Source of the DNA: Hericium rajendrae | Lineage: Eukaryota; Basidiomycota; Agaricomycetes; Russulales; Hericiaceae | NCBI GenBank assembly: GCA_033439255.1 | Contig: CM065888.1 | Coordinates: forward strand, 1,426,001-1,490,000 | Length of the DNA stretch: 64,000 bases | Direction of reading: 5' to 3' | In this document: in pieces, positions 9,279 through 64,000 of the stretch | How the letters are laid out: every line of letters starts with the position of its first letter | Position numbering within the stretch: the stretch's first letter is position 1 | Translations under genes and position numbers: made by a program | Notes under the pieces: model-generated | The model's database searches: none | Told to the model about the DNA's origin: nothing | Seen by the model: the letters and a program-made list of their open reading frames with translations, nothing else

Positions 9279-12200
9279 ATGTCCGCGCTTGAGCTGCTGC
9301 CATTTCATCGTACAATCTTGGAGGATATCCACGATCCTGCCACCAGCGATCTTGTGATTCTAGCGCGTGGCCTCGGTCTGCGGAGGATCCTCTGCACTCT
9401 TATGCAAATATATGATTCTCCACAGAACCTCGTCCTTCTGGTAAATGCGACGCCTGAAGAAGAATGGGAAATAGGCGAGGAGCTTTGTATCATGGGATCC
9501 AGGAGACCGGGTATGCGTGTGGTAGGGTACGAGACAGGGAAAAAGGAGAGGTAAGTATTCTGTAGTTGCTGCAAGTATCGAAGGCTCATTTACGTTAGAC
9601 AGGATTTGTACAAGAAAGGCGGTCTGGTCTCTGTTACCTCCCGAATCCTTGTCGTCGATATGCTGCAGGCTGACATACCTACTGAGCTCATCACTGGCAT
9701 TCTCGTGCTGCATGCCGAAAAGTACGTCTGTGAACTTTACTTTACTTTACTTTAGCCTGATGGTGGATTATAGAGTCACTGCACTGTCTCTGGAGGCGTT
9801 CATCGTCAGACTCTACCGCGAGAAGAACAGGGCTGGGTTTCTGAAGGCCTTCACAGACCAGCCGGAGCATATCAAGTCTGGACTTTCACCTCTGCGGAAC
9901 ATCATGAAAGAAATGCAACTGCGCACTGTTCATATCTATCCCAGGTTAGCTTCAATCCCCTGCATTTCTGATGTAGTGTGCGTATACATAAATCTGCACA
10001 GGTTTCACGTCGCGATAAAAGAGTCGCTGGAGCGTAAACGTGCAGATGTCGTTGAGCTGCATCAACCGATGACAAACTCAATGAAAGAGATACACAGTGC
10101 CATCGTGCAGTGTATGACGACGACCCTCTCCGAGCTGAAACGCGCCAATACGACTGTACGTTTGCCATCTACTTCCATGGACTAATACTTACCGCTATAC
10201 GCCCATTCAGCTCGAACTCGACGACCTCAACGTCGAGAACGCTTATTTTCGGTCTTTTGATGCTATTGTCCGCCGCCAGTTGGATCCAGTATGGCACAAG
10301 GTCGGCCCACGGACGAAGCAACTCGTCAGTGACCTCGCAACGCTTCGCCGTCTCCTGATGTACGTTCTTGACCATTGGTACAGATCGCCATTGACGCTGT
10401 GATGCAGGTATCTCCTTACATACGACCCTCTCGCCTTCCATGCATATCTGGAGACGATAATCGCCTCGAGCTCCGTCACCACCTCCGTAGCAAGACAACA
10501 CCAATCGCCATGGATGCTAACCGATGCCGCCCACATCATCTTCCACGTCGCAAAGCGGAGATGCTACACCGTCAGCGCTGCACCCACAGCGCCGCGTGTG
10601 ATCGACGCGGTTGACGACGAGGACGCCTGGGAGGCCTTGGACGAGCTCGAGGGGCGCATCCCTGCGAAAGACAAAGGCAAAGGGAAGGAGACGGACAAAC
10701 CCACACGGCCTGCGTGGCTCCCGCACAATATCGAGCCGGTGCTCGAGGAGCTGCCGAAGTGGAGCCTGCTGGGCGAGGTGCTGAAGGAGATCGAGGAGGA
10801 AATCATGCGGTATGAGATGCAGCCACGACGTGCGTACGATCCTCTGCATATCACAGGGTGAAGCTAATTGTTATGCCGGGTACAGCGATGAAGGGCAGCA
10901 ACAGGGTACTTGTGATGACGTCCTCTACGCGGACCTCTGCGGTCCTTACCGAGTTCCTTTCCTCGATGGACGCGTCGGCGCCTCCGGGACAGCAGGGGCG
11001 AAAGATGCTGGAAGAGAAGCTGCGGACGTATCTCTGGTGGAAGTCGAGACTCAGTGATGGAAAGGACGACGGTCCGCGCAGGGCGTATCCGCTTCCGGAG
11101 AGCAGAAGTCGGGACGGCCCGCCTGATGGGGAGATCAGCGAGGCGCTCAGAAAGAAGGACCGGGAGAGGAGGGACCGTGCTGCGAGTCGGCGACGGGTGA
11201 GGGGTGGTGCCCCGGCGGCGGCTGATAATGGGAGGAGCAAGGAGAGGGAACGGAATCCTAATATAACATTTGAGGAGGAAATAATGCTAGACGAATCTGA
11301 GAGCATTGCGAAGTTGTGAGTACTGCTCCCCACCGGTATTTTGTCAACATGTGCTGATTAGTCGTAGCCTATCTACGCAGAAATCCTCCGGTGGAAGCGG
11401 TGAAGGCACAAATCTCCTGACAAGTAGCATGAGCGACCTCCCAACCTCCTTCGATGCCGACCTCGCATTATCTCTTTCTCTTGCGGAAAGCGCCATCACC
11501 TTCGAATCCGAGTTTGATAACTACTATGGGCTTGTGCCCGCGGAAGAGACGGTTGTCGTGCGCGCCTATTCGGATGACACCGATGACCGTATGTTGTCCG
11601 AACTACAGCCACGCTTCATCGTCATGTTTGAGCCAAGTCAGGATTTCATTCGACGTGTCGAGGTTCGTAATTTGTCGACTCGACGGCTTTGCTTCTCATT
11701 TCGTGTTAGGTCTATAAGAACTCAAATCCGGGTTTGGGGGTGCGTGTCTACTTCATGCTTTATCAAACGAGCTGTGAGGAGCACAAATACCTTGCGGGAC
11801 TGAGGAAGGAGAAAGATGCATTTGAGAGCTTGATCAAGGAGCGCGGCGTAAGTGTAGCACTTGTGGTGGATTGTTCTCCACGGCTTATGTTTCATGGTAG
11901 GTCATGCTGCCCATCCTGGAAGCTGAGAGTACCGCGGCCGCAACCGGGAGTGATGCTATTATCAAGACAATCAGCACGCGGATAGCGGGAGGGAGGAAGG
12001 AGGTCTCGACCGAGCCATCTCGAGTAAGTGTATTCTTCTTTTCGGCCGTCTCCAGCTATGATCTAACTGCCATGTTCAGGTCATCGTCGACATGCGAGAG
12101 TTTCGGTCAACATTACCTTCTCTTTTGCATGCATCGAAGTTGTTGGTGATCCCCGCGACGCTCACCGTTGGCGATTACATATTGACTCCCGAAATCTGCG

Positions 12201-19770: not shown

Positions 19771-22700
19771 ATGTCGTCTCTGAAGAGAAAGTCGGGTATC
19801 CTTCCCTGCTCTTCAGCGAAGAGGTTGAATACAACGTCTACTCCACCAGAACTGGACATAGAACACGAAAACCGAATACTTGAGCCAGGGGCCAATGCCC
19901 GCAGTCGGACTCCTTTCCTTGCTTCGGAGTCAGCGATGACTGGAGCGATTGATAGTATGTCGGAAATTTTGTTACACATGGGGTGACATTTAATTTTTCG
20001 CCATGACAGCTATGCCATCTTCGTCTGGGAGATGGAACGCGACGGTAGAAGATGATGTCGATGACGAAACCGTCGTTGATGTTTCTACGTCTAATCCCCC
20101 CTTTACTGGAAGAGGCACAAAGGCTGCCAATGCGCAGGCCATAGCCTCGAATTCATCTGGCTTTATCTTGCCTGAAGAGCATTCGTACAGTCCGGCGGGG
20201 GAACGAGGTTTTAGTGCAGCAGTCGGCGGCATGTCCGACGATGGCAATGCTTCGAGACGTTCAGACGCAGGTCCGTGATAATCATAATGGATTTTTCTGT
20301 TGGCTAAATATTTTCTCTTATACTACTTTTTTCCCCTTCAATTGTTGCCCGTTCTCTCGTTCTTCGTTGGCTGGATGTGTCGTAATTCGGTGTTTATGAT
20401 GGTCCTCGGTCGCTCGGTCTTACGTTCATTGGTCATTCGTTCTTATGGTCCCCGTTGCGTACCGATCCTGGTCTTGATTGTTCCATTGCGCGCTTTAGAG
20501 CATGTGTCAAATAACTATTACACTCTTTTTCGAGATGAACTTGCGTCTCATGGAGCTGGAGTTGCAAAAGTTTTGCAGTCCCACTTGCATCAATGGTATC
20601 GTTTTATCGAGCCACTTAATTCGGCAGAAGAGCGATCGGATGGAGGTATTTATGTCCGGTCACCTTCTATTGAATTGTTATTATCATCTCTCAATAAAGT
20701 CAGCGCAGTGCAAATGCTTTCCATTGCGAAAGCTCACAATGTGTCTGTTCGGCGGGGAGCCAAAAAAAAGGAAGTATACGAGCTGCTGTGTCAAGATCAT
20801 GATTGTAGTCCACAATGTGCAGAGATATTGTACTTGTTTGCACCTAGAATACACGAGTCTAGGGGGCCTCAATCTTATCCACAGCGACGCGTCACAAATA
20901 CTTCAGTCTTTCGACACTATGAACCTCGTACTAGGCTATTTGCAGAGGACACGTCAGCATCTGCGCCGACTTTGCATTCGACGGAAATCCCAACGGTCGG
21001 ACAAGATACCTTTCCTATGATGTGCGGCAGTGGTCGAAAGCATGAAATCATTCGAGAATGGCAGAATCATTTTGCTGACGAAAAGTGGGAGATTAAGCCT
21101 TGTTCAGTCTGTGGGCAAGGAAAGCCAGCACAAGACATTGTAGTGAAAGACGCGTCAGAGCTTCCATTGCGTTTGTTAAGAAATGATCATATTCCTTGCG
21201 ACTTTTGGCCGAAAGATTATGATTTTCATTTGTATCAACGCGCTTTTCTATATCAACCTGGGATCGGAAGTCCTTATCATTTGGGAAAGATGGCAGTGTG
21301 TACATCCTGTATAACAGCACTGAATCGTCAAGAGCAGCCACCGGACTCGATAGCTAACCATCAATATTACGCCCACGGAGCATTAACCGAAGAAGTGCGA
21401 AACGCCTTTCGAACGGCTAGTGTACATGAGTTACAATTGGTTTCGGCTTGTCGAGCAACTAAGGTATCTTATGTTTATAAGCGCGGCGCGGGGTCAGCTC
21501 TTGCACCACAAAGATACTGTCGAGGAAACGTGGCCATCATCCCTCAAGATGTCGCAGCCGTACATCGGGTTTTGCCTCCATCTCCAGAAGATTTGTGTAA
21601 ATGCATATCAGTGTTATTTGTAGGAGGCAGCAAAAAACCTACTAGAGAGGATCTGCAAAAGCTTGGGCCTGTTTTGGTTTCCAAGAAACGTGTCAGGATT
21701 ATGCTGGATTTTTTGATCGCTAACAATCCATTTTACAAAACTGAAGAAATTCAGTTCAGTCAGGAGAATCTTGATCAACTAGTCGATGTTGGACATATAG
21801 AAGAAGACGTAGGTATCAGTAACGCGGTTGAGATTTGTCATGTTGAGCGAGAAGATGCGACGGTCAATGCGACATCGTCAGGATATGTTGACCGTTTTTC
21901 GAACGCCTTGGAAATTCCTATGGACGAGACACTTATGGAAGTTGTGGGGTACGGCAGTGGTTCTGAAGGAGGAATAGCGCATGACTCCAATAAAATCGAG
22001 GCCTTGCGTTTGTCATTGACGAATGCTTACCTATTAGTGCGTGCGGGAGATCAATTGTTCCCCGATAGAGACCCCCGTCTGTTAAGTTTTGTTTTCCCAC
22101 ATTTAGATCCCTGTGGCTTGGGTGCATTTAACCATCCGTTGCGTCAAGGGAAACAAAGGATTACCTTTGAGCGTCAACTCAGGAATTTGACTATGAGACA
22201 CGAGAGGATTTTTGAGCGCGATCCGAACTTGGCTTATGTTGGCTGGAATATCATTCAAAAACACGATGCTTCGAGTCAGATGGTGTTTCGTGTGAAAGAT
22301 ACACAATATAGAGATGTTTGTACTCAACTTTTACAATCTACGGATTTGCTTGAAGAGATGAATGTTAAGTATAAGGAAAACCCTTCGTCTGAACCATCAA
22401 ACAGAGAAGAAAAGAAAATGCTTGCATTATTGAACAAAATGAAGGTTATGGCTAAAGACTTGCGCGGTTCTAATGGTCATAGGTTGCATCTTCGCAACGA
22501 AATACGTTCCATGCTCAAAACTCATGGATGTCCTGCTTTTTTCGTAACGTTAAATCCAGCGGACATTCATAATAAATTATTGCACATACTGGCTGGTGGG
22601 AACGCGACAAGCTTCGAAGGAATGGATGCCTTCGCAAGGGCAAAAGAGGTATCCGAGAATCCGAGGGCCGCAGCCCAGTTCTTCGACCATATGATACAAG

Positions 22701-25700
22701 CCTTCATAAAGATTATTCTTCGCCATGATGATCCACGGGGCGGAGTCTTTGGTCAGTCGAAGGCATATTACGGAACAGTCGAGGCACAAGGACGAGGAAC
22801 CTTACATTGTCATATGTTAATATGGATACGAGGAAATTTGTCTCCGCAAAAATTACGAGATCGTATGGCAGTGGATTTAATTTTTAAAGAGTCTATGTTT
22901 TCCTGGGTCGAGTCTATCATTAAATGTGAACTTCCTGATATGAGAGAAGCCTTACCATCAGATCATCGAGGTCGATGTAAAAAGCCAAGTCGAGAAGATC
23001 GTCCGGATGTAAGAACGACTGACGCACCATTTCTCAGAGACGACGCTTCCGAGGACGAGCTACGGTTGTTCGAAACCAACTTCCAGGAATTTGTGAAGGC
23101 TCTAGCCATCGAATGTAACTGGCATGAACATAGAGATACTTGCTGGAAACATCTGAGAGAAGGAGAGCCTAGAGATGATGCTCACTGTCGGATGCGCGTA
23201 GATGGCAAAACTCGGACAATTACTGAATTGGACCAAGAAACATGGAATATCCTCTTGCGGCGTTTGCATCCATGGATTAACAATTTTAATGATCTTGTTT
23301 TGTTTTTAATGAAATGCAACATGGACATAAAATTTATAGGTTCTGGTGAAGCCGCGAAAGCGTTAGTCTATTATGTGACAGATTATATCACAAAGGCATC
23401 CCTACCGGCGCATCTTGGACTATCAGCTTTGTGTTATGCTATTCGTGCGAATAAAAAGAAATACGCCAACGATCATGATGCTGTGCAATCGGTGGTTTAT
23501 CGCAGCCTTGTGATTAAAATCGTGAACGCAATGATGGCGCGACTGGAACTGTCCCAGCAACAAGTTATGAGCTACTTACTAGGGAATGGAGACCGCTACA
23601 CCAGCGATGTTTTCCGTACACTATATTATGGAGAATTAGATCGGTTTATTGAAGTATGTGAGAATACTCCCGAGCGACCTGAAGATTTAGATAATCCAGA
23701 TGATTTTGCGCTAATCGAGTCCAACGAGGAAATCGAAGATGAGCCTGATGCTGAAGAGATTGTGGCCGAGGTGGATGCGGCTGATGAAGTAGAAGATGGT
23801 TTACGGGAGCAGGCAAGTCAATCTGCAGGTATGGACATTGCAGCCGACCGTGATTCGATCACTGAAGAAAGAACTATGAGTCTTCGCATCAGTCCTAAGG
23901 GAATCACAGCATCAAGTTTGCTCAAGGACTATCGTTATCGAAGTACGAGCCTCCCTTTTGAAAACCTTAGTGTGTGGGAGCATGCCTCGCTCGTAGAAAA
24001 GGTCACTGCTTCATCTGAACAGCAACGTGTCGAAAACGACCGAAATAGAAGGGTTCGAGGACCTTGGAGAGCGGATCGCGTCAGGTTTTGTGATGAAGCA
24101 CATCCACAATATAAGACGCACTTCAGTTATTTACGGCGCACGCCTAGTACTCCGCTGTATCTCGGTTCTGCGATTCCTAGAGGAGATCGTGGGTACGATG
24201 AGCGAGAACGTTATTGTAGGGCTATGCTGATTCTATTCAAACCGTGGAGATGTCTGAAAGACTTGAAAGATAATGATGAAGAATGGGGAACTGCGTTTCA
24301 ACGCACTACATTCTCGCCAGGTATGATCCAAATTATGGAGAATATTGCTGCAGAAAATGAATGCAAAGACGCTCGAGAAGAGTATGATTGCGCACGACGT
24401 CGAGGCCAAGCAGATGGACTATTACAGGATGGGGAGTCGGCAACGTCTCGTGGCTTCTATGACCAGCTTGAAGAATCTGCGATTGCTGATCAAGATTTAG
24501 ATTTCTTCCCCATAGCATCAACTGTGGAGGGTGAAACTGACGCACCTAATGGGCTCGACCCAACAGCGTTGGCGTGTAACATGATTGATGCTCGTGTATC
24601 CCATTCAGTCGACGTTCTCGACCGTGCCGGCATGTTCAAGATGTCCGAATTCGTGAGCACCAGTGATAGTAGATCTTACTCCGTTACGCCGGCACAGCTA
24701 AAGGAACAACAAAAATTAATGAAAAAGTACAAGACCAATCGAAGGCCGAGAGTTAGACGCTCACCTGAAGAGCTTTCCAATAACGAGCAGCGCTCTAATA
24801 ACCAACAACCATCTATTTTTATTGGCATGTTATCTGATGAAGAGCGGCCGATCGTCAATTCTCCTACGACGAGTGACCATAATGAAGGAAAAAATTTAAC
24901 TGTGCAAGGCGTCATAAATGACATGAATATTTCCGGCAATGTTGAGCAAGAACGTGCCGTGCGTATTGTAGCCAATCACGTCAACAATCATGCTGCCGAC
25001 CAGTTGTTGATGTACATTGCAGGTGTAGGTGGGACGGGGAAAAGCCACGTTATAAAGACAATAGTCGAGCTGTTTAGGCGTCTAGAACGTTCAAATAAAT
25101 TAATGCTAAGCGCACCAACAGGAATCGCTGCTGTATTGATCGAAGGTTATACTATTCATGCCTTAACATTTCTGCCTAAATCGAAACATAAAAGTAAAAC
25201 TGAAGAGTTAATGAACGTATGGAAGGATGTACAGTACCTTGTTATTGATGAAATTTCAATGGTTTCCGCACTATTTCTTAGTCAGATATCGAACAGGATA
25301 GCCGAAGCGAAAGGCTGGCAGCCTGGAATGTGCGACTTACCTTTTGGCGGTGTTAATGTCATATTTACGGGAGATTTTGGACAATTGCGCCCTGTGCAGG
25401 CCAAAACGCTGTTTGCGCATGACCTTGTATCAAATATTGGTTCCAATCAGGCTCAGAGTCCAACTGGACAAGGCGCGCTGTTTGGGGCTCACCTTTGGAG
25501 ACAAGTGAACACGGTCGTTGAGCTGAATACTAATATGAGGCAAAAGGACGATAAGGCATATGCGGAGCTGGTAGGACGTGTAAGAGTGGGACAAGCAACT
25601 AACGCCGGACAATCAAATTCTACTTGCGCATCAGATTACGAGACGTTAACTGGCCGACTGATGAACGTACTGCAGGACAAAGACCCCCAAGACTTGAAAA

Positions 25701-26452
25701 ATTTTGAACGCGCGCCGATAATAGTGGCTGATAAACGAATTCGAGATGCTGTGAATATGAATAAAGCTAAATGTAGTGCCACAGAGTACGGCAAAACGTG
25801 CAAAATATATCATTCGATTGACAGAACAAAAAGGAAGCCTATAACTGGAGCATTAGCTAGCAAACTAAGAAAGGTGAGATCATCTGTCACGAAAGACGCA
25901 CTAGGAGAGCTTCCACTGTTCGTCGGTATGCCCGTTATGGTTACTGAAAACGTTGACATCTCGCATGGCATCGTAAATGGGAGTGAAGGTACGGTAGAAC
26001 ATATAATTCCCCATTGTTCATCCGACGGTTCTACTTCTGTGGACTGCGTATATGTTAAAATCCCCGGGAGCAATATTCATTTACCAGGGTTAGAACTTGA
26101 CGTCGCACCTATATTTCCGGCTGATAAGTCCTTCAAATACAAAGCAAACAGATCTACGTACTTCAGCATATCCAGACGTCAAGTTCCTCTTCTGCCTGCA
26201 TATTCTTATACGGACTATAAAAGTCAAGGTCGTTCGCTAGAACACGCGATACTGGACCTTGCCGGATGCCGCTCGCTCCAAAGTCTATATGTTATGTTGT
26301 CAAGAGTGAAAACGTTAAAAGGCGTCGCTATTCTCCGGTGGTTCCCGCCAGGCAAAATCACGCAAGCCCTTTCGCACGAATATAGAGACGAGTTTTCTCG
26401 GTTGCGTGCATTAGCATTTGACACAAAATTAAAGTATCCGTCCTCACCGTAA
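19771..26452 (+). CDS. Helitron Rep-helicase (RepHel)
   Basis: Three exons by eye: 19771-19954, 20010-20270 and 20499-26452, phases matching, about 2132 residues. The two small exons encode a polar Ser-rich leader. Exon 3 opens with DAEHVSNNYYTLFRDELASH, then a region with KVSAVQMLSIAKAHNVSVRR and a cysteine-containing part of DUF6570 type (KPCSVCGQGKPAQ, MAVCTSCITAL). The Helitron Rep domain follows (PAFFVTLNPADIH). Its HUH metal site is at residues 918-920 (GRGTLHCHMLIW). Motif-3 tyrosines are at about 1106, 1107 and 1111 (YYVTDYITKAS). The PIF1-like SF1 helicase follows: Walker A GVGGTGKSH near 1657, Walker B VIDEIS near 1730, and GDFGQLRPVQAKT. The end has the PIF1 motif VI region (YTDYKSQGRSLEHAILDL). 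No internal stops and all catalytic residues in place suggest recent activity. Confidence 0.9.
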
Positions 26453-52397: not shown

Positions 52398-52816
52398 ACT
52401 ATTATGCCCCGCTTACGATTTCTTGCTGGCGGCGTCCAGTCCGATGACCACGATATGTATGGGATACCTGCGCAGAGGAAAGAAGAGGGCCGCTGCTAAC
52501 ATCCTACTTAATCCACCGTTCCCTTTCGCCGTCCGTACATTGTGTTTTCGTCCCCTTTCATACCCTACTTTATACCCTCGCCGGCCGCTCGTTTATCTAT
52601 CTGTCGTTCGCCCGTCTCGCATATTCCATTGCACTCTGGTTTGATATTTGAGTTATTATTTTATGGATCGTCTATGCGGATCTCATGCGTGAATGTGGGA
52701 TTGCGCCGCCATGGGTCGTAAGGTACAGGAAGTGACCACGATGGCGCTGCCGATTGTAACCTCTATGATGCGTACACTAGCCTACACGTCCTGGTCCTAC
52801 AATTGACGCGATGCGG
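52398..52816. other. Convergent intergenic region
   Basis: 3' flanks of two convergent genes; pyrimidine-rich, no gene. Confidence 0.35.
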
Positions 52817-54293
52817 TTACTGCTGCGGCTTCGCGAGCGGCGCCGTGGGCGCAGCGACGTGGTCGACGGCACCAGAGTCCCACTTGACAGTAACGCTGCC
52901 GTCCTGGTTGCCAAAGTACGCGGCCTTGGCCATGTGGCAGAACAGCCCGACCTCGACGACGCCGGTGAGCATCTTGATCTTGGCGAGGAGGGTGTAGGGG
53001 TCGCGCATGTGCACGGGATCGAAGGGGGCGTCGATGACGAAGTTGCCGTTGTCGGTGACGACGGGGCCGGCCTTGGCGGCGTGGGCCATGCGGAGGGCGG
53101 CGCGCGGGGAGCCGAGGGCGTGCACGTTCTGCAGGAGCTTGGCGTAGGCGAAGGGCGCGACTTCGATGGGGACGCCTTGCGTGTACTGTGCGGGCGTGAG
53201 TGGTCAGTCTGGGTGGGGTCAGGCGGGCACGCACGTTTGTACCGAGGACTTCGGAGTCCTTCCGGTAATCGGCGACGACGATGAAGGTGACGGCAGCTTC
53301 GGCGAGGACTTTTTCGCGCAGGTGGCATGCGCCGCCGCCTTTGATGCAGTTCAGGTCACGGTCGACCTCGTCTGCGCCGTCGATGGTCACGTCAAGCGTG
53401 GGGTATTGGTCGACGTCGCCTAGGAGCAGGCCGCCCTGGACGATGAGTTCTTTTGATTGGAAGCCTGCGAGAGCGGGTCAGATGGCCGTGAAGTGCGCGC
53501 GCGAGGGGAACTTACCGGTTGGGATGAACACGCGCTCACTGTTCACCTCCTGGCCCTGCGAGATGATGCGCTCAATGACGTAGGGGACAGTTGATCCTGT
53601 GGGTGAATCAGCATCACTCCTCTGGGTATTTCAGTCCCTTGCATGAAGGATGCATTCGCGCGGCCCGTGCGCTTCAGAGAGCGTCAATCTGATTGCGCTG
53701 AGCAGGCACGAGCTCAAGCATATCCAGATTCAAGCGCACGCGTCTGTCGTCGAAGGAACCTGTCGCCATGCCTGATGCGGAGTCGGCTTGCCCGATGCAG
53801 AACGCAGATCCGAATGGGACCAAAATACACGGCGTGTGCGGTGGGTTCAGCGAGATGCTAGCCGGTTTGGCGCACGCCTCACGAGGATCCACACCACACA
53901 GGCCCGTGCGACTAGCACCAATCTCTACATAAAGTGAAAGCCCAACTCACCTGAACCAATGCCAATGACCTGTAAAGTGACCAGACTGATCAGTAACGGC
54001 CGAGCGAGAGAGACGAAGCGTAACGAACCTTGTGCTCAGGCAGGACATGCTTGTCGACCGCTGTCCATGCCGCTAACCGCTTCGACGACTCGATCGCGCT
54101 CAGCTTGTGTGTCGCTTCCAGTTCAGAGTTATGAGCATGTCCGCAAATCTGCACGAACGAGAGCACACATACCGGCGTCGATGGTCGCCTGTGCATGGGT
54201 CAAAAGCGTGGAAAGAGTGTTGTCTGCGGTCGGACGCATGGGAGTCGTGTTTACGGGCGTGCTTTGGGTGAGTACAGGAGGCATGGGGGGCAT
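52817..54293 (-). CDS. RKI1: Ribose-5-phosphate isomerase (RpiA type)
   Basis: Interconverts ribose-5-phosphate and ribulose-5-phosphate in the non-oxidative pentose phosphate pathway; cytosolic. Exons: an N-terminal Thr/Pro leader ([20 protein letters not shown]), then [20 protein letters not shown], then [17 protein letters not shown], which holds the GIGSGST substrate loop. Next [40 protein letters not shown] with the DGADE motif, [17 protein letters not shown] with the KGGG motif, then [14 protein letters not shown] and a last exon to the stop at 52817 ([20 protein letters not shown]). About 290-300 residues. The start at 54293 is the first ATG; 54283 is nearly equivalent. Confidence 0.93.
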
Positions 54294-54759
54294 CGTAGGC
54301 GTCGTGGGATGCGAAGACGGTGTATCGATGGGCGACGGGCGGTTGATATAGGGTAATCAGGGCAACGAAAATTGAGTCAAATGAAGCATGTCCGTGGAGC
54401 GCTGCTCACGCATTTCGGGGCAAAACTGGGAACGGCATCTTTGCCGTCAGAAATCTGCTTCGGGTGGGAGTCCGACAGCGGTAAAAGGTAGAACAGATGC
54501 CAGGGTGCGTGGATGTTCGGGGACGAAGTGTGTGCATTTGGTGCGCATTGGTGCAGTAGTCCGATACTCGGAGGCGCAGGCATTGGGAGAGGATGAGGGC
54601 CGTCGAGGAAGAGGACGCGTCAGATCGACGACGCGCCATTGGTCCATATGGGTCCATGTTTGGCCACGGGCGCCTGTTCGACTTGCGCGTTGCCCACCAA
54701 TGGCCTGCGGCGATTTCGTTCGAACATACCGAGGGCAATGGTGAGACTTAGCACATTCT
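54294..54759. other. Promoter-side spacer of RKI1
   Basis: No gene supported; short ORFs overlap on both strands. Confidence 0.3.
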
Positions 54760-55409
54760 CTATTCTCTAAAGACACGGCCCTTGGACGCCACAGCATGCC
54801 AGTCTGTGGAGTTCAATTCTCGCTTAGCGCGCTCGGTCTCGCGCTTGACTCGTTTCACGGCCTGTTCAGGTCCAAGTCGTAGTTTACTGATCTGCTTTTT
54901 ACAGATTCTAACCGGGAAGTACGGCGCGCGACTGAAACAGCCGAAAACGCGTGAATCAGGTGTGTAGAAGTTGACTTCGCCGTCCGCGACGCCCTCCGAC
55001 ACTATTCGAGCAGGAGACCCACCCATTCCAGCGTCGCAACCTGGCGATAACGCGCCCCTCCTCGATGCGCGAGACGTCGAAAAGAACCCGCCGCTGCCGC
55101 CAACACTCCGCTGCTGAAGAAACTCCGCCAGATTTCCACGTCCGGACGCAGAATGCAGTCGCCGCGGGAACCTGCTGCACCCGTCGTCACGGCGGGCGAT
55201 GTGAAAGAGCTCGGACGTGCGATGCCCCAAAACACCCAACACCGTGAAGCCGCTGCCGGCGCGCAACCACACGAACTTCAAGGCGCTCGTCATGACGAAG
55301 ATGACGCGGAATGCGCGCCTAGGCTGCCCCACCGCACGTCGAACTTGACGATGACGCCCTCGCGGCGGATGCCTGGGACTCCGGACGGGGAATGCGGCGG
55401 AACGGGAGG
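54760..55409 (-). CDS. Possible terminal exon of a transcript crossing the repeat array
   Basis: An open stretch that follows the last intron-like cassette (55410-55464) on the minus strand and ends with a charged C-terminus (EQAVKRVKRETERAKRELNS, TDWHAVASKGRVFRE). PDSRVFGCFSRAPYFPVRI precedes it. No family is recognised. It starts within the repeated GGGCGTCATCGTCAAG element, so it could be the unique end of a repeated-exon gene or merely an ORF in GC-rich DNA. Confidence 0.3.
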
Positions 55410-58400
55410 CTACCCATCATCAAAGGTGAGTTTGCGCGCAACTCGGAATATCTCGCAGACTTACCGATTCGCAGCTGCAGACGTCGCCGCCATGTCCACC
55501 GACGGACGCTCCGACGCCCGAACCGCTGTCGTCGCATCGTACTTGACGATGACGCCCGCGGTGCTCGACGGACGTCCGGGCGCCCTGTGAGACCCCGCAA
55601 AGACAACCGGAATCGCGCCGTCCGCACCTACTTGACGATGACGCCCTGAGATGCCCGACATGGTGGAATGGAAGCCTGTATATTATCATAGGTGAGTTTG
55701 TGCCGCCGTTGGTACATATGGCGGACTTACCCGTCCCTGCCCAGTCCGCCAACGGAAGCCGCGACGCCGCAATCGCTCCATCGCGGCGTACTTGACGATG
55801 ACACCCCTGACGCTCGACAGGCTTCTGCGCGCGAGTTGAGATGGCGGAGGGACGTATCTGGGTGGTGGATGGTGCCGTGAAGTCCCGCGGCGCTTCAACC
55901 GGAATCGCGCCGACCGCACGTACTTGACGATGACACCCTCGGGAGTCAGGACGCAGCGCAGTGCCTTAGAGCCTGCGCGACGCGTCAGTTTCTGCGCCGC
56001 CTCGCATATCTCACCAGCTTCCAGCAGCCTTGTACGATGAGGAATGCCCTTGGAGTCCGCCGACGGAGCCGACGGCCACGGTCTCGAACAAGAGCGCCCC
56101 GCGTGCGCTGAAGCCAGTCCCATCGCGCGTTGAACTTGACGATGACGCCCTTGTGGCATCGCGCAGGCTCTGGCGGAACTCGGAGGGATGGAAGCCTGTC
56201 GGAGAGCGCGCGGAAGCGGCGAGCGCTGTGAAGCACGAAAAGTGAGTATGCGTGCGCGATTCTGTACATCTCGGAGGCTTACCTGGACATAGTCTCGCAG
56301 GCGATCGCCGTTCAGCGTGCGCCGGAGTCAGAGACTGCGATGATCGCCTGACCGAAGGCAGGGGCAGGTCCCGCGGGCGACGTCGTCTGGTGGGGATAGC
56401 ACTGTCCGGAATGCCGTGATCGGCGACGACGGGTAGCGAGAAGGGCGACCGCAAAAAGGCGGGACACAGACGCGGAAGTGGGCGTACAGACACCATGACT
56501 CGTTCGGCGATGCATGCGCCGGCTGAAATATGAGTGAACGGGCCCCTGCACATCCTGGAGAGCAGACAAGTATCTGCAGCCTCGAACTTGACGATGACGC
56601 CCTTTGGCGTCACGAGATGTTCGCGAGGCGCGGCGAGACGACTCTATCTGAGTCTCCGATGCGTGGGGGTGATGTCCGATTGTCGACAGCAGGGTCAGCA
56701 GAAACCTGCCGACTTCGACTACTCCACCTTCGAGCAGCCCGCGCCACTCGCCGCGGGGCCTGATGCCCATGATTCCATGCCAGAAAACGCGTTGTCTGCG
56801 AGTCCAGGTAAGCACAAGGTCGTTGTCTCAGCAGAAAGCTCGACATGAACTTACACCATGATGCAGTTCTTGCGAGCGCAGCCCATCGCTCGCAGACAAA
56901 TTCCGAGTCGGCGGCGGCCCGTTTGCGCGAATGGGCCTCTGCACGTCGTGGGAACAGACAGGTGTCTGCGGCCTCGGACTTGACGATGACGTCCTCCGGT
57001 GCTAGGGAAAGTTCGGGAGCCTCTGCGAGACGACCCGTGCGAGTCTCCGTGCTTAGGCGGGCGATATCCAATCGTCGAGAACAGGCTCGACGGAGACCCG
57101 CCGACTTCGTATGGCCCTTCCAGCAGCCCGCGTCGCTCACCGCGGGGCCTGAAGCCCAGATGTTCCGGCTGCAAAATTTGCTGTCGCGAGTCCAGGTAAG
57201 TACAAGATCGTCTTAGCTAATATGTCGATATGAACTTACACTGTAATATGGTGCTCGCGATGGGCTGCGCCCATCACTCGCAAACGACATCGGCGGCGGC
57301 TCGCTTGTACTAACACTCCGTTTGTTATCTCCTTCGAGCACGCCCGCCGCTCGGCGCGGGCCTCGAAATTTTAGAACTTTCAGCAAACAATGGCTGTCTA
57401 TTGAAGGCCTGGTGAGTCCTACTTTGACTCGGCTAATATCACGGTGAAATACTCACGTTGTCGCGCAGAGCTCGCCCGGGGCTACGCCCCGCGCTCGCGG
57501 AGAACGTCAGCGGGCTTCCGCTGACGTTGACTTCGCAGGTGACTCTGCCCTTCGAACCCGGTCGCCGCTCGGCGCGGGCCTTTGGATCTCGGAGTATTCG
57601 GCGCAAAAAAAGCATTATCTGGATGTCCAGGTAAGTATCGATTTATTTCGGCTAGTTGCAATCGAGAGCGACGTACCAGGACACGCAACTCCCCCAGAAC
57701 CGTGCCATGCACACGCAAAGGCGTCCGGCGGGCTTCACCCGCCTCCTGCGAAGTGCAGCGTGAGCGTCGAAGTGACGCTCACATCGTAGGTTCTGTTGTA
57801 TGGACCAGTAGGCCGCTCGGCGCGGGCCACTGGATTCTGGAATCTTGGAGCCAAAATAACGTGTTTCTGTGCATTCAAGTAAGTACCAAACGGCCTCGGC
57901 TAATAGTAAACGAAAGCGACTCACAGGGATGCAGAAACACATCTGTAGACCCGGAGAGCCCGTGCATTCGATGGGTGAACACATACGGCGGGCTGCGCCC
58001 GCCTTCCGCCAAGCGCGACGTGAGCGTCGCTCCGATGCTCACTCCGAAGGTCTTATCCTATGGATCAGTAGGCCGCTCGGCGCGGGCCACTAGATTCTAC
58101 AATGTTGGAGCTGGAATAACGTGTTTCTGTGCACTCAAGTAAGTACCAAATGGCCTCGGCTAATGCTAACTAAAATTAACTCATAGGGGTGCAAAAATAT
58201 ACCTAAAGGCCCGGAAGGCCCATGCCTTCCATGCGTGAACGCGAACGGCGGGCTGCGCCCGCCTCCCGCCAAGCACGACGTGAGCGTCGCTCCCACACTC
58301 ACTCCGACGACTTTGTCCCATGGTCCAGTAGGCCGCTCGGCGCGGGCCTTTGGAATTTGGAATTTCGGGCACAAAACGCGATATCTGGATGTTCATGTAA

Positions 58401-59212
58401 GTCTCAATCTGCCTCGGCTCATTGCAATCCAGCGCGACGTACTACGACACGAGAAACGCCCTGGGATTTGCCCAATGCGCACCCAAGGACATTCGGCGGG
58501 CTTCGCCCGCCTCGTGCGAAGTACAGCGTCAGCGTCGAAGCGACGCTCACGTCGTAGGCTTTGTTCTATGGACCAGTAGGCCGCAAGCCGCGGGCCGCTG
58601 GATTCTGGAGATTTGGGGCCAAAATGGCATGTTTCTGTGCACCCAAGTGAGCACGAAACGGTCTCGGCTAATAGCAACCGAAAACGACCCACAGGGACGC
58701 AAGAATACACCTATAGGCCCGGAGAGCCTGTGCTTTCGATGCGAGAGCGTGTACGGCAGGCTGCGCCCGCCTTCCGCCAAGCACAACGTGAGCGTCGCTC
58801 TGACGCTCACTCCGACAACATTGCCCTATGGACTAGTAGGCCGCTCGGCACGGGCCACCGGATTCTAGGATTCCGGGGACGGAGAAGGTCTTTCTGGGCA
58901 TCTAGGTGAGTACGAGTGGATCTCAGCAAACCATGATTGAAACCAGCTCACAGGGATGTAAAGTGATGTTCCCCACACCCGCAGAACCCGCCTCCCACAT
59001 GCGAACCCATTGGGCGGGCTACGCCCGCCCCTTGCAAAGCACCATGTGAGCGTCGCGCTGACGCTCACTCGGTAGACTTCATTCTATAGATCAGTAGGCT
59101 GCTCGGCGCAGGCCACTGAATCTTGGGATTCCGGAGGCAAAAAAAGCGACCTTTCTGTATGTCGAGGTGAGCACGCAAATGTCTCGGCCAGGAATGACTT
59201 AGAATGGCTTAC
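55330..59212. repeat. Degenerate tandem array of hairpin block plus intron-like cassette units
   Basis: A run of related units that changes along its length. From 57400 to 59212 the units are 248-262 nt. Each has a GC-rich hairpin (typical GGCGGGC-TGC-GCCCGCC), a second hairpin (typical GTGAGCGTC...GACGCTCAC), the box TAGGCCGCTCGGCGCGGGCC, and a cassette with splice-like ends. From 56500 to 57200 the units are about 390 nt and carry an extra segment with ACTTGACGATGACG. From 55340 to 56150 that segment recurs at irregular spacing (55344, 55543, 55631, 55791, 55923, 56135, then 56588 and 56980). Copies differ by many substitutions, so the array is not young, yet cassette length barely varies. 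Neither strand keeps one reading frame through all units. Confidence 0.85.
57619..59212 (-). other. Seven intron-like cassettes of exactly 58 nt
   Basis: Read on the minus strand, the segments 57619-57676, 57867-57924, 58127-58184, 58385-58442, 58635-58692, 58894-58951 and 59155-59212 each run from a GTRNGY-type donor to a CAG acceptor, with CTTAC or CTCAC 10-18 bases before the AG. One copy (58127-58184) has ATGAGT in place of the donor. The intervening pieces vary between 190 and 203 nt. Read on the plus strand, nearly the same segments run from GTAAGT/GTGAGY to CACAG-type acceptors, 48 nt long, though one copy (near 58440) lacks the plus-strand AG. Confidence 0.7.
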
Positions 59213-59482: not shown

Positions 59483-60690
59483 TAGGTGTCGAATGGGCAT
59501 TGTTCTCAGCATGCGCACCTGGCTGTCGATTCTGGACGAGGGTCATGGTCACGGGCATCGGGGGAGCAAATTTAGAGGGGGACACAGAAGGCAGAGGGAG
59601 TGAGGCCAATCCCAGGGGACCGGTATATATGCCCCGATCATGCGCGGAGGATCACCTTTTCCTCCGCTGATGTGTGGACCCTGGGAATGGAGGCGGCAGC
59701 CAAAACCAAAACCAACAGAGTACCGGGGGGTGCGAGGGGACCAAGTATCTCAAGAGGGGAGCGCCGAGACGTGTAGCTGACGGGTGATCGTACTACGGGT
59801 AGGGGAGCAAGGCCGCGGAGGGCGAGCTTGCTGCGCGCGGGCGACTTCCGACGCGGCTCTGCTAGGGACGATGACGGTACGACAAGACTCACGGGTCTTA
59901 GGTGATACGGCTTGTAGATAACGGCGCGGCGACGAGTACGACGAATACAATGAGCGACACGAGAAAGTGAGAAGAGCTACGTCTGAGACGTGCTTAGAGG
60001 CTGGGGTGAGAACGTCAAACGGCGGGCTTTGTGAGATCTGAGCTCTGAGGGGAAAAGGCAGATTCCGTTCTGATTCTCTAAGTCAGTAGCTACGGTACAA
60101 ATGGGCAAGGCCGCCTCAGGCGGCCCGGCGCGACTTCCTACGACAACCTCCCGCTGACCGACCCAATCTCCAATTCCTTCCTGATCCTGCCTGCTCCGGG
60201 TCCCTTGGCGAGTGGAGTCGTTGCGGCTCGGCCCGTGCAGGGCAGAGGGCGTGCGCGTGGTACGAACGAATCAAAGGTGCCGCCTTACAACGTCGCCCGG
60301 GGCGTGCGTCGGGAACGGCGGGCGCGTCGAGCTGGAATGGCTGGGATGACATCAGTAGCGCACTGTCGCGGGCGCCGCTCGTGATCCGGGGGCGTGTGGG
60401 CGTTCGAGGGCGCGTTGATTGAGCCGGCTGGTTCTCTGGGCGCGCTTCTGTTCCTGTGCCGCTGACTCGTCCGGCCGGTTGATCTCCGGCCCGTTCGGTG
60501 CATCGGACCACGGGACACCGGCTTTAGTCCGACCCGGTCGGTCCCGAACCCGTGGGGGCGCTTGTCCTGTGCAGGGAGCAACGTCGCGGTGGGCGGACTT
60601 GGTGCGGCTGAGGTGAAGTGAAGCGGGACGGGCAAGGAGGCGGGGAGTGGGCAATGCCGTTGCAAGGTGCGCTAAAGGGCGCATCATTCT
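59483..60690 (-). mobile_element. Likely LTR-retroelement remnant (LTR and flank)
   Basis: The segment ends at a purine-rich tract (minus-strand TTAGGGGGAGAATGATG at about 60690), which resembles the polypurine tract beside the Ty3/gypsy element at 61820. What follows on the minus strand would be the LTR, but its other boundary was not found and it does not resemble the LTR candidate of the second element. Old and incomplete; family assignment is weak. Confidence 0.3.
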
Positions 60691-61597: not shown

Positions 61598-64000
61598 AGT
61601 CTGAACCTGTGTGAATCTAAAGGGGAAAACCAGGAAGAAACAAAGTCACCCCAGGCGATCTTGTCAGGGCCTATATGATTGGTGAAGGTAAAATCTGAGT
61701 GGTGGATGGTATGAAGATCGCCCAAGGCGAGTTTGTCGAAATGCAAGTAACAATAGATTTATTTCGTGCGTGTGGGTATTGGTGGGGCGTCCAAGGTCGT
61801 CGACACGCTTGACTGACAGCCTCTACTCCCCCTAACTGAAAAATGGACTGCCCTCAGTCCTCCTCACTAGTCGAGTGGTCAGAGGACGCTGCGGGCGAAC
61901 TTGGTCGGGACCTGTCGAATTCGCCGAGGTCGCTGCCGGCGGTTTCGTCATCCGGGTCTGTGACGGTGGAGGCGAGTAAACGTTCAAACTGCTCGATGCC
62001 GACATCGAGGAAATCTTCCAATGGCGGGTGATCGAGGATGGTACGGGCGAAATATGGGACAACGCGGTAGGCTGCGGTGGGCCGGTCGAATAACGTACCA
62101 TCGAGCTCACACAAGAGGTAAGCACGCCCCTTGTTGCGGCCGAGGACAAGGTACGGGCCTAGGTAGCACGGTTTGGTCTTCCGGGAATGGCTGGTGCTGT
62201 ACGCGGAATTGCGGACAAGTACCAGTTCGCCATGGCGAAAGTCAAAGTCGCGGATCGTGCGTTCATGTTCCAGTTCAAATTTTCGTGCTGCCTGGAGGCG
62301 GGCCTCGTAGACGCGGCTGTGAAGTCGCTGAAGGTCCTTTTGACGCTTCTGCAGGGCAAGAGCGCGGGAGGCGATCAGGTCGGTAGAGGACAAGATCGCC
62401 TCGGGCGGCGGTAGCAGGTAGGTGGCTTCAGCGATATCGAGCGGCATCAGGGGGTGCGTACCGGTTACCGCGAAGTATGGGGAACAGCCCATGCGCCGGC
62501 GGATGGTGATACGTTCCGACCAGAACACGGAGTGGGCTGAGTAGCTCCAATTCTTCTCCACGCCGTCGGCGGCCTTGATCAGGGCTTGGCGTACGTCAAA
62601 GTGTGCACGCTCAGCGATGCCGTTGGCTCTCGAGTTATAGCCCGAGATGCGGATATGCCGGACGTGGTACTTCTTTTCCAGCTGCGTCAAGGCTTTAACG
62701 AACGGGCCGCCGTTGTCGGACACGATTTCGGTGAGCATACCCCAGCGGCACAAGATGTCTTGGTAAATCCAATCAGCAATGTGCTCGCTGCGTTCTTTGC
62801 GCAGCATGCGCCATTCGGGAAAGTGGGACACAGAGCAGCGCCCTTGGACCAGGTATTGCATATTGTTGGATTTCGGCAGGTGCATGGTATCCATGTACAT
62901 TTTCGCAAATAAAGGCGCGGGCACCGCAACCGTTGGCGGGATAAGAACTTTGCGGATCTGGAACGCTTGGCAAATATGGCACGAACGGACGAACCAAGCG
63001 ACATCCGAGCCCATAAAAGGCCACCGGAAACGGACCGCGAGCAGGAGGGCGGTTGCGGCGACGCCACGGTGTCCCGCGGACTCGTGAGTCTCAACGAGAG
63101 CAGCCCAGCGGCCGGTCGGCGGGAGCACTAGTTTGTGCGCATTTGTCTTGTCGCGCTTCCAGAGGCGGCCACCTTTCATGAAGAAGTCGCGGCAATAACG
63201 CAGGAAGCGAGCGTACTCCCGGTCCGTCAATCCGTCAGGGCGGATCAGATGGAGCAGGAAGTTGGTGACGGCGCGCAGTCGGGCATCCGTGAGGAGGGAT
63301 TTTTCGGACCTTGGAACGTCTGCGTAGGACGCCAAGTGGTCTTGCGGAGGAGGCGCGACAAAATCGCCAGCAGCGACATTGGTCGAGATGAGCTGTTGTG
63401 CCAGCTGAGGGCGGTCGTGGCCGATCCGAGGCACATTTATTATGTGTACAAAGCCATAAGCACGGTCGACCCAGTCGTCGAAGTCGTCGTCGGGTTCGGG
63501 CGCATCATCGTCCTGGGGGCGGCGCCGGGAGAGGCCATCCGGCCCATGCTTCTCGCCGGGGACGTGGACCAGGGTAAATTGAAACATGAGGATGCCGACG
63601 ATCCACCGGTTCATGGACGCACTAGGGGCGAGATCGGGATTATTCAGCATGCCGGATATATAACGGGCGTCGACTTCGATAATCAGGTTGCAAACGCCAA
63701 TGAGCCAGAGTTTGAGTGCGCGAAGGCTCCGGTATAGGCCATATAATTCCAGCTTTGGTTGGGAGAAGCACGCCTCACGGTCGTTCAGGGCGATAGAGCC
63801 GAAGCGGGCATACCGGCGAACTTTGGGGTCGTCCACATCCTGTTGACAGAGTAGGTAACCGATGGCAATATAGGAGGTGTCGACGCCCAGGATCACTGAG
63901 GCGGGAGACTCGTAATCTATCGCGCGCAGGGCGGGTGATGCGAGTAGCGCTTGCTTAAGGTCTTCCTGCGCAGCCAACTGGTCTGGGCCGAACTCGAATG
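61300..64000 (-). mobile_element. Ty3/gypsy LTR retrotransposon, 3' part, running off the window
   Basis: The pol region at 61854-63977 and beyond shows, in order, RNase H, a zinc-binding HHCC region, an integrase core and a C-terminal integrase domain. A purine-rich tract at about 61820-61835 lies just after the coding part, and a TGTCAG start of a candidate LTR follows; the LTR's far end was not fixed (the coordinate 61300 is a guess). The part seen is open and looks whole, which suggests a fairly young copy. Its gag, protease and reverse transcriptase would be beyond the right edge. Confidence 0.75.
61854..64000 (-). CDS. Ty3/gypsy pol polyprotein, RNase H-integrase part (partial)
   Basis: The reading frame is open to near the window edge. 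It shows the RNase H region, including the stretch ending VPGEKHGPDGLSRR, the HHCC zinc-binding region (HESAGHRGV through SCHICQAF), the integrase core around VSDNGGPF and a C-terminal domain (LVLVRNSAYS, YLGPYLVLGRNKG). The order of parts is that of Ty3/gypsy elements. Upstream parts lie outside the window. Age probably recent, since the visible part is uninterrupted. Confidence 0.85.
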   Translation of the reverse strand, partial: FEFGPDQLAAQEDLKQALLASPALRAIDYESPASVILGVDTSYIAIGYLLCQQDVDDPKVRRYARFGSIALNDREACFSQPKLELYGLYRSLRALKLWLIGVCNLIIEVDARYISGMLNNPDLAPSASMNRWIVGILMFQFTLVHVPGEKHGPDGLSRRRPQDDDAPEPDDDFDDWVDRAYGFVHIINVPRIGHDRPQLAQQLISTNVAAGDFVAPPPQDHLASYADVPRSEKSLLTDARLRAVTNFLLHLIRPDGLTDREYARFLRYCRDFFMKGGRLWKRDKTNAHKLVLPPTGRWAALVETHESAGHRGVAATALLLAVRFRWPFMGSDVAWFVRSCHICQAFQIRKVLIPPTVAVPAPLFAKMYMDTMHLPKSNNMQYLVQGRCSVSHFPEWRMLRKERSEHIADWIYQDILCRWGMLTEIVSDNGGPFVKALTQLEKKYHVRHIRISGYNSRANGIAERAHFDVRQALIKAADGVEKNWSYSAHSVFWSERITIRRRMGCSPYFAVTGTHPLMPLDIAEATYLLPPPEAILSSTDLIASRALALQKRQKDLQRLHSRVYEARLQAARKFELEHERTIRDFDFRHGELVLVRNSAYSTSHSRKTKPCYLGPYLVLGRNKGRAYLLCELDGTLFDRPTAAYRVVPYFARTILDHPPLEDFLDVGIEQFERLLASTVTDPDDETAGSDLGEFDRSRPSSPAASSDHSTSEED

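Follow-up and report, generated by a model that had tools for sequence, protein, structure and literature searches.

Noncoding transcripts built on repeats have been described among mammalian long noncoding RNAs (lncRNAs): in Firre, one repeat recurs in many exons and acts as a nuclear retention signal (PMC4820808), and in repeat-bearing lncRNAs such as Xist tandem repeats serve as RNA domains (PMC6316617). Multiplied introns are described from fungi as introner-like elements, near-identical and invasive introns that have been multiplied into different genes (PMC4457414). Here, we analyse an array of intron-like cassettes, separated by repeated predicted exons, on the minus strand of a 64,000-nucleotide (nt) stretch of the Hericium rajendrae genome (contig C11:1,426,001–1,490,000; hereafter the window), together with its relatives in the 46.8 Mb and 19 contigs of the same genome, whose KDZ transposases, AA9 gene and short introns (all below) are in keeping with a basidiomycete. 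Judged from DNA sequence, the array probably belongs to a dispersed family of noncoding RNA genes, many of which lie just upstream of ordinary genes.

With Firre the family would share a noncoding RNA whose exons, lying between introns, repeat one sequence: in the DNA, the array has one repeat per predicted exon, and its phase and indel counts (below) give no sign of coding capacity. Firre is a single locus with long introns, whereas the present family, compared by architecture only, occupies about 27 loci, has short predicted introns and a promoter pattern in common, and carries an array of a 15-mer apart from the units. Xist-type repeats are not known to be separated by introns; those of the array, in contrast, alternate with intron-like cassettes. 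Like introner-like elements, the family has multiplied predicted introns in a fungus. Unlike them, intron and exon multiply here as one unit, in apparently noncoding DNA, and the exon flanks are homologous between units rather than near-identical introns sitting in unrelated exons. To Kyakuja-Dileera-Zisupton (KDZ) transposons the likeness lies in one diverged array inside a KDZ-matching element with inverted repeats; the part of the KDZ source available (PMC12730594) mentions no intron array, and the window array has no nearby KDZ match among the matches listed. No description of such a family was found in the literature searched, where subscription journals were mostly absent. Repeat-exon lncRNAs are known as a kind, and it is the multicopy, promoter-sharing, short-intron form that appears to be new. 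If RNA is made, this fungus would possess long noncoding genes that form a class of many copies and are built of duplicated exon–intron units; splicing constraint could then be read from the paralogues of one genome, a rare test of the need for introns in noncoding RNA.

A dispersed family of units with conserved splice signals

The array comprises 13 cassettes on the minus strand, running from 59,212 down to 55,410 (Table 1); all 13 carry a branch-like CTYAC and a CAG or TAG, and 12 a GT donor. The earlier note, made from the letters of the window, had claimed at least thirteen cassettes in one array, seven consecutive ones of 58 nt and most others of 55–59 nt, and all of this was borne out: the seven occupy 57,619–59,212, and the remainder measure 59, 59, 59, 57, 55 and 55 nt along the array. 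The possible 42-nt cassette that it listed was not found in the window, and that value occurs once among 71 scored units of the family. Its spacer range of 190 to about 240 nt and beyond proved wider, at 158–513 nt (203, 201, 192, 200, 202, 190, 162, 158, 326, 513, 495 and 211 nt). A loose regular expression for introns matched the array 12 times on the minus strand and seven times on the plus strand, and the same expression gave a mean of 0.14 and a maximum of 3 matches in mononucleotide shuffles (n = 500). The tandem arrangement of the units would suit a plain satellite whose intronic look arose by chance, but given 12 matches where 0.14 are expected, and a dispersed, diverged family with near-invariant splice signals, that explanation is scarcely credible.

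DNA searches of the same genome, with hits grouped by hand, placed related units at no fewer than about 27 loci on 11 contigs, a lower bound in which a few loci rest on one weak hit; six copies lie at C1 4.93–4.99 Mb, spaced 12.3–12.9 kb apart. Over the fetched loci, with units shorter than 150 nt discarded, nhmmer recovered 117 distinct units, of which 82 remained once those at least 85% identical to a kept unit had been removed. Across these 82 units, whose counts are not independent events because the units are paralogues of common ancestry, the donor reads GT in 81 (AT in the remaining one), with a purine at +3 in 82, G at +5 in 81 and a pyrimidine at +6 in 82, that is, the GTRNGY of spliceosomal introns. 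Further in, the branch motif CTNAY is present in 75 of the 82, and a YAG within 24 nt in 72 as against 42.3 in shuffles, the branch and acceptor signals of spliceosomal introns at a spacing that is not uniform. Intron length over the 71 scored units ranges from 42 to 66 nt with a mode of 58, so near-constant length is a trait of the window array more than of the family. Predicted introns of host genes in this genome resemble the cassettes; two examples from the isomerase region downstream of the array are 49 and 51 nt long and contain CTCAC and CTGAC, respectively.

Because a profile could select its own motif, we rebuilt it from exon sequence only. A GTRNGY donor directly follows 58 of its 63 exon hits (five shifted windows gave 0–2 donors), 53 have a donor plus the branch motif, and YAG stands at 104 of 120 acceptor boundaries against 23–82 in shifted windows. 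The acceptor evidence is less strong than the donor evidence. Per 1,000 unit-columns, the 82 non-redundant units show 12.8 indel events within the intron against 17.2 in exon sequence beside it, taken as about 90 nt on either side. This mild contrast does not bear out the claim that nearly all length changes lie outside the cassettes. Selection for splicing, which had been argued from that pattern, is supported by the conservation of the donor in the 82 units and in the exon-only control (58 of 63) and not by the indels.

Besides the common ancestry of the units, several observations weigh against minus-strand splicing. The cassette at 58,127–58,184 has lost the GT of its donor, which reads ATGAGT; the branch-to-AG spacing varies, being 9 nt in 36 of 72 units; and the plus strand is partly intron-like too, with GT in 75 of 82 units and YAG in 61 of 82 against 48.9 ± 4.3 in shuffles. 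A plus-strand reading of the cassettes was nevertheless rejected, and the minus strand preferred, because the plus-strand acceptor is modestly above chance and has no strongly preferred place. On balance, we are fairly confident that the array corresponds to a spliced noncoding RNA.

Noncoding character and hairpins of the predicted exons

For the coding tests we compiled 54 predicted exons, removing those outside 120–280 nt or sharing at least 60% of 8-mers with a kept exon; introns without GT or YAG yielded no exon. Substitutions by phase number 2423, 2581 and 2414 (224 pairs), which amounts to no codon-phase bias; wobble positions are not freer to vary; and 306 of 1,578 indels have a length that is a multiple of three. 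These counts agree with the noncoding transcript that the earlier note had proposed as one of two options. The other, a repeated-exon gene in decay, sits poorly with wobble positions that are not freer, hairpins that covary, and donor and branch signals that have been kept. More generally, a repeated-exon protein gene, live or decaying, would draw on the frames that stay open in 34 of the 54 exons against 17.9 in mononucleotide shuffles, an observation that speaks against a noncoding transcript; the excess is likely compositional, because the antisense strand (33) equals the sense strand. With no codon phase, indels that do not come in threes, and no Pfam hit for the open reading frame (ORF) at 54763–55332, the sole ORF scanned in the 3' part of the array, such a gene is very improbable. 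Coding exons, and a coding 'GVIVK' motif, were also considered and rejected: third-codon bases hardly vary among motif copies with up to two mismatches, stops follow some copies, and the frame shifts.

The six window exons between cassettes 1 and 7 contain hairpins of the types GTGAGCGTC/GACGCTCAC and GGCGGGC/GCCCGCC. We examined these in an alignment of 41 exons, comprising 39 hand-chosen from the 54 and two window exons that flank the broken donor. Over this alignment the three named helices have 92.9% paired cells, a measure that gains from the choice of the helices on a single one of the aligned sequences; 10 of 20 helix pairs have changes on both sides, in 33 cells. None of 500 shuffles reaches the observed paired cells, two-sided changes or covariation score, and additional pair types in the helices are not above shuffles (306 of 500). 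RNAalifold, unaided, returned 10 pairs with a weak covariation term of −0.24. A known RNA family was rejected for the window, where Rfam at gathering thresholds gave no match. DNA palindromes would produce the covariation signal equally.

Putative promoter, 15-mer repeats and downstream genes

A conserved stretch 5' of the arrays at C1, C4 and C9 contains CGGAGGA-N-TCCTCCG followed by TATA, and its counterpart in the window is a putative promoter. We take the palindrome to resemble a Gal4-type zinc-cluster site. The pattern drawn from these and the window occurs at 14 distinct places in the genome, four of them being the loci from which it was derived and which it then recovered, and the reversed-pattern control occurs at none. 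Twelve of the 14 lie 0.5–1.6 kb 5' of the nearest unit hit and on its strand; the other two, C4:2,595,742 and C13:250,464, have no listed unit hit.

In seven mapped stretches, the 15-mer GGCGTCATCGTCAAG recurs at the other end of the arrays, where most copies follow the array on its 3' side and share its strand. The 15-mer has 263 exact copies genome-wide, against none for the reversed control; among 85 differing copies, collected with up to two mismatches, agreement spans some 20 nt and extends little further. A hairpin with the 15-mer in its loop was rejected, as bridging pairs came to 10.59 against 10.55 with exchanged flanks (110 sites). A variant motif, CTTGAAGATGCG[GT]ATGACGCC, 6 nt longer than the 15-mer motif, lies beside further cassettes at L039 6860–7266. 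Palindromes and 15-mers might instead act as DNA, as protein-binding sites with incidental transcription. The other strand of the 15-mer contains TGACGATGACG, presumably two half-sites of bZIP type, its flanks form no stem around the motif, and the hairpin pairs of the exons would persist equally as DNA palindromes. This account leaves the fixed-place constraints on donor, branch and acceptor unexplained, and we regard it as improbable.

Beyond the 15-mers, a conserved element is treated as gene-proximal, and not as the end of the RNA, because it sits shortly upstream of gene starts at several loci; in the window, CCAAT-type boxes adjoin it at 54701–54551. A same-strand gene start follows the array at 9 of 14 loci examined, with a tandem pair of squalene epoxidase genes counted as one locus. 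Seven of these sense neighbours have a domain match (the isomerase of the window, squalene epoxidase, protein kinase, fungalysin propeptide, DEAD helicase, PAH/Sin3 and AA9 polysaccharide monooxygenase), and two were recognised by eye, namely a ferredoxin-reductase-like gene (L065) and a metacaspase-like gene whose single scanned fragment (L052) had no Pfam hit. The N-terminal motif of the isomerase, at 54085, was likewise judged by eye. The Pfam scans behind these assignments covered 10 ORFs in a first set, two with hits, and nine in a second, seven with hits. The gene-proximal element is present at seven of the nine sense-gene loci, at L062 through a weak regular-expression match. The bias in orientation is suggestive and not proven, because the gene search covered the downstream side only.

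The array could alternatively be a 5' leader with many introns belonging to the mRNA of the downstream gene, a leader that splicing across the conserved element would join to the coding exons. Consistent with this, the downstream gene points in the direction of the array at 9 of 11 loci with a recognised gene, and GTATGT follows CTCG in five of the six element copies that could be aligned, the C2 copy having been dropped for want of its anchor. In the sixth copy the sequence is GTACAT, and in the L062 copy GTGTCG; the CCAAT-type boxes after the element suggest a separate gene promoter, no fixed acceptor emerged, and at five loci no start of a sense gene was read within 4.5 kb of the array. We consider the leader doubtful.

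For the reading that we prefer, a spliced noncoding RNA in a dispersed upstream family, a further set of observations is unfavourable. Besides the derivation of the promoter pattern from four of the loci that it recovered, 5 of the 12 array-linked promoter places fall in two tandem groups. Some 15-mers lie 5' of or inside arrays (6466 and 6622 in the C4 stretch, 6210 in C9, 16321 in C1), and some copies are on the strand opposite to the array. At five of the 14 loci (L057, L058, L060, L061 and L063) no sense start was read within 4.5 kb, two of these having convergent genes by eye; a fifteenth locus, L064, was undecided and is counted in neither group. By regular expression, the gene-proximal element was found at none of the five loci without a sense start, and it was also missed at L059 and L065.

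The sequence itself shows the units, their conserved splice signals, the missing codon signal, the exon hairpins, a usual order of promoter, array and 15-mers, and a place 5' of several unrelated genes. What we infer beyond this is that RNA is produced here, is spliced, and is used as a transcribed upstream regulatory module of the neighbouring gene. The palindrome-plus-TATA promoter at 59,624–59,666 would start a minus-strand transcript of RNA polymerase II type and about 5 kb. Its 5' half would be made of duplicated units, each a structured exon of about 200 nt and a spliceosomal intron of 55–59 nt, and its 3' half of the 15-nt repeats, ending near the CCAAT-boxed conserved element some 0.6 kb upstream of the ribose-5-phosphate isomerase gene on the same strand. 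The repeated introns might plausibly keep transcription productive, and the repeated hairpins might plausibly make the RNA multivalent and perhaps hold it in the nucleus, a role that the exonic repeat has in Firre. Copies would have spread through tandem duplication, and a giant KDZ-transposase element would have carried the array as cargo on one occasion or more. A role of the array as a cis-regulatory module of the downstream gene is held tentatively; the spliced noncoding RNA and this role, taken loosely together, are on balance probable.

A bolder form, unlikely in our estimate, is that of a promoter module that moves. Its 5 kb would comprise a CCAAT-boxed gene-proximal element and the template of a structured RNA with many introns, driven by a TATA promoter of its own. 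Such a module would have been copied before unrelated host genes, namely isomerase, squalene epoxidase, AA9, kinase, helicase and protease, partly as cargo of giant KDZ elements, and at some sites amplified together with its gene. Squalene epoxidase was read in both of two tandem copies (in the second by eye), and AA9 in one of the six copies spaced 12.3–12.9 kb. If modules drive the genes behind them, this would be a worked example of a copied, shared promoter spreading over unrelated genes.

Several observations were made beside the arrays at other loci. The AA9 ORF lies at L040 1806–2633, within the C1 4.93–4.99 Mb group. At L041, 4637–5710 and 8451–9920, two arrays stand back to back in opposite directions with a 409-nt inverted arm of 91% identity; this arrangement recurs every 12.75–12.98 kb at C4 3.15–3.19 Mb and adjoins an ORF for a P-type ATPase with a heavy-metal domain. 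A second tandem repeat, of about 294 nt where measured, lies 3' of genes at L041 2262–2981, L051 3897–5015 and L039+L040 10689–11353, and was not found in the window.

Table 1. Array components and adjoining features, in window coordinates
Feature	Position	Strand	Detail
Putative TATA promoter	59624–59666	−	palindrome CGGAGGA-N-TCCTCCG then TATATA; pattern search
Cassette 1	59155–59212	−	58 nt; GTAAGC..CTCAC..CAG
Cassette 2	58894–58951	−	58 nt
Cassette 3	58635–58692	−	58 nt
Cassette 4	58385–58442	−	58 nt
Cassette 5	58127–58184	−	58 nt; donor ATGAGT
Cassette 6	57867–57924	−	58 nt
Cassette 7	57619–57676	−	58 nt
Cassette 8	57398–57456	−	59 nt
Cassette 9	57181–57239	−	59 nt
Cassette 10	56796–56854	−	59 nt
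Cassette 11	56226–56282	−	57 nt
Cassette 12	55676–55730	−	55 nt
Cassette 13	55410–55464	−	55 nt
Six repeated predicted exons between cassettes 1–7	57677–59154	−	190–203 nt; among the 41 aligned exons
15-mer GGCGTCATCGTCAAG, 8 copies (up to 2 mismatches)	55344–56993	−	at 55344, 55542, 55631, 55791, 55923, 56135, 56587, 56979; interleaved with cassettes 10–13
Conserved gene-proximal element (CTAAGTCTCACC..GCCCTCGGTATGTTCGAACG)	54697–54839	−	10 genome places including the window
Ribose-5-phosphate isomerase gene, downstream	52800–54085 (approximate extent)	−	Rib_5-P_isom_A, E-value (E) 4.2e-26 on 52800–53477

The KDZ-type element and other features of the window

Fixed spacings of the 15-mer pointed to an element that is present 17 times at 98–99% identity, with 12 copies covering the full query and five partial or split. 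This KDZ-type element carries three diverged array units (E 8e-16 to 4e-11) and three 15-mer copies. At its right end, 14 other copies stop at query 2062–2064, one at 2069 and another at 1182. Close to the element ends, 334 nt recur in inverted orientation at 97.6% identity (C2 and C10 copies), and the C10 copy is about 32 kb long. The KDZ transposase (PF18758) has 172 matches in the genome, and among the matches listed there is one 5' of each of the 17 element segments, at 9,420–9,432 nt in ten and about 12–24 kb in seven. The element (L066, L067, L068 and L069) also has an F-box-like ORF just under the cut-off (E 2.8e-5); the ORF scan that included it covered eight ORFs, two others of which had coiled-coil-type hits below the cut-off. 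As regards the inverted stretch, the available part of the KDZ source describes two characterised Laccaria Kyakuja families as lacking terminal inverted repeats and Zisupton as having them (PMC12730594).

It is conceivable, at a level of belief similar to that given to the leader, that the arrays belong to a transposon family (KDZ or a related one) as its noncoding portion with introns, with the window copy an old immobile remnant and splice signals kept since active copies need them. The three units and three 15-mers inside a 17-copy element with inverted repeats fit this, as do the KDZ matches 5' of every element segment and, among the matches listed, within 30 kb of 5 of 27 array places (C2 4.11 and 4.51 Mb, C5 69 kb, C7 2.77 Mb and C8 365 kb). 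That fraction is about what chance would give for 172 random matches (roughly 20%, an estimate), and no KDZ match among those listed lies within 50 kb of the window array or of the C1 4.9-Mb, C4 3.15-Mb and C4 0.52-Mb arrays. The array of the element is short and diverged, as expected of captured cargo, and the fact that old copies, unlinked and roughly 70% identical, are conserved argues for selection in place. Because 5 of 27 is close to chance and the window array has no KDZ match within about 350 kb on C11 among the matches listed, we treat the transposon as one carrier of the family and not its definition. A match to a known transposon, which the earlier note had named as telling against its reading, exists for a diverged array of the same build in a recently multiplied KDZ element and, among the KDZ matches listed, not near the array in the window.

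Elsewhere in the window, a retroelement pol fragment with RNase H and integrase zinc-binding domains occupies 61854–63977 on the minus strand, about 2.2 kb upstream of the putative promoter. A 51-nt tandem repeat (17 codons) at 1193–1510 overlaps long ORFs, and a large Helitron ORF lies on the plus strand at 20300–26452 (Helitron_like_N, E 9e-34; PIF1, 5e-25).

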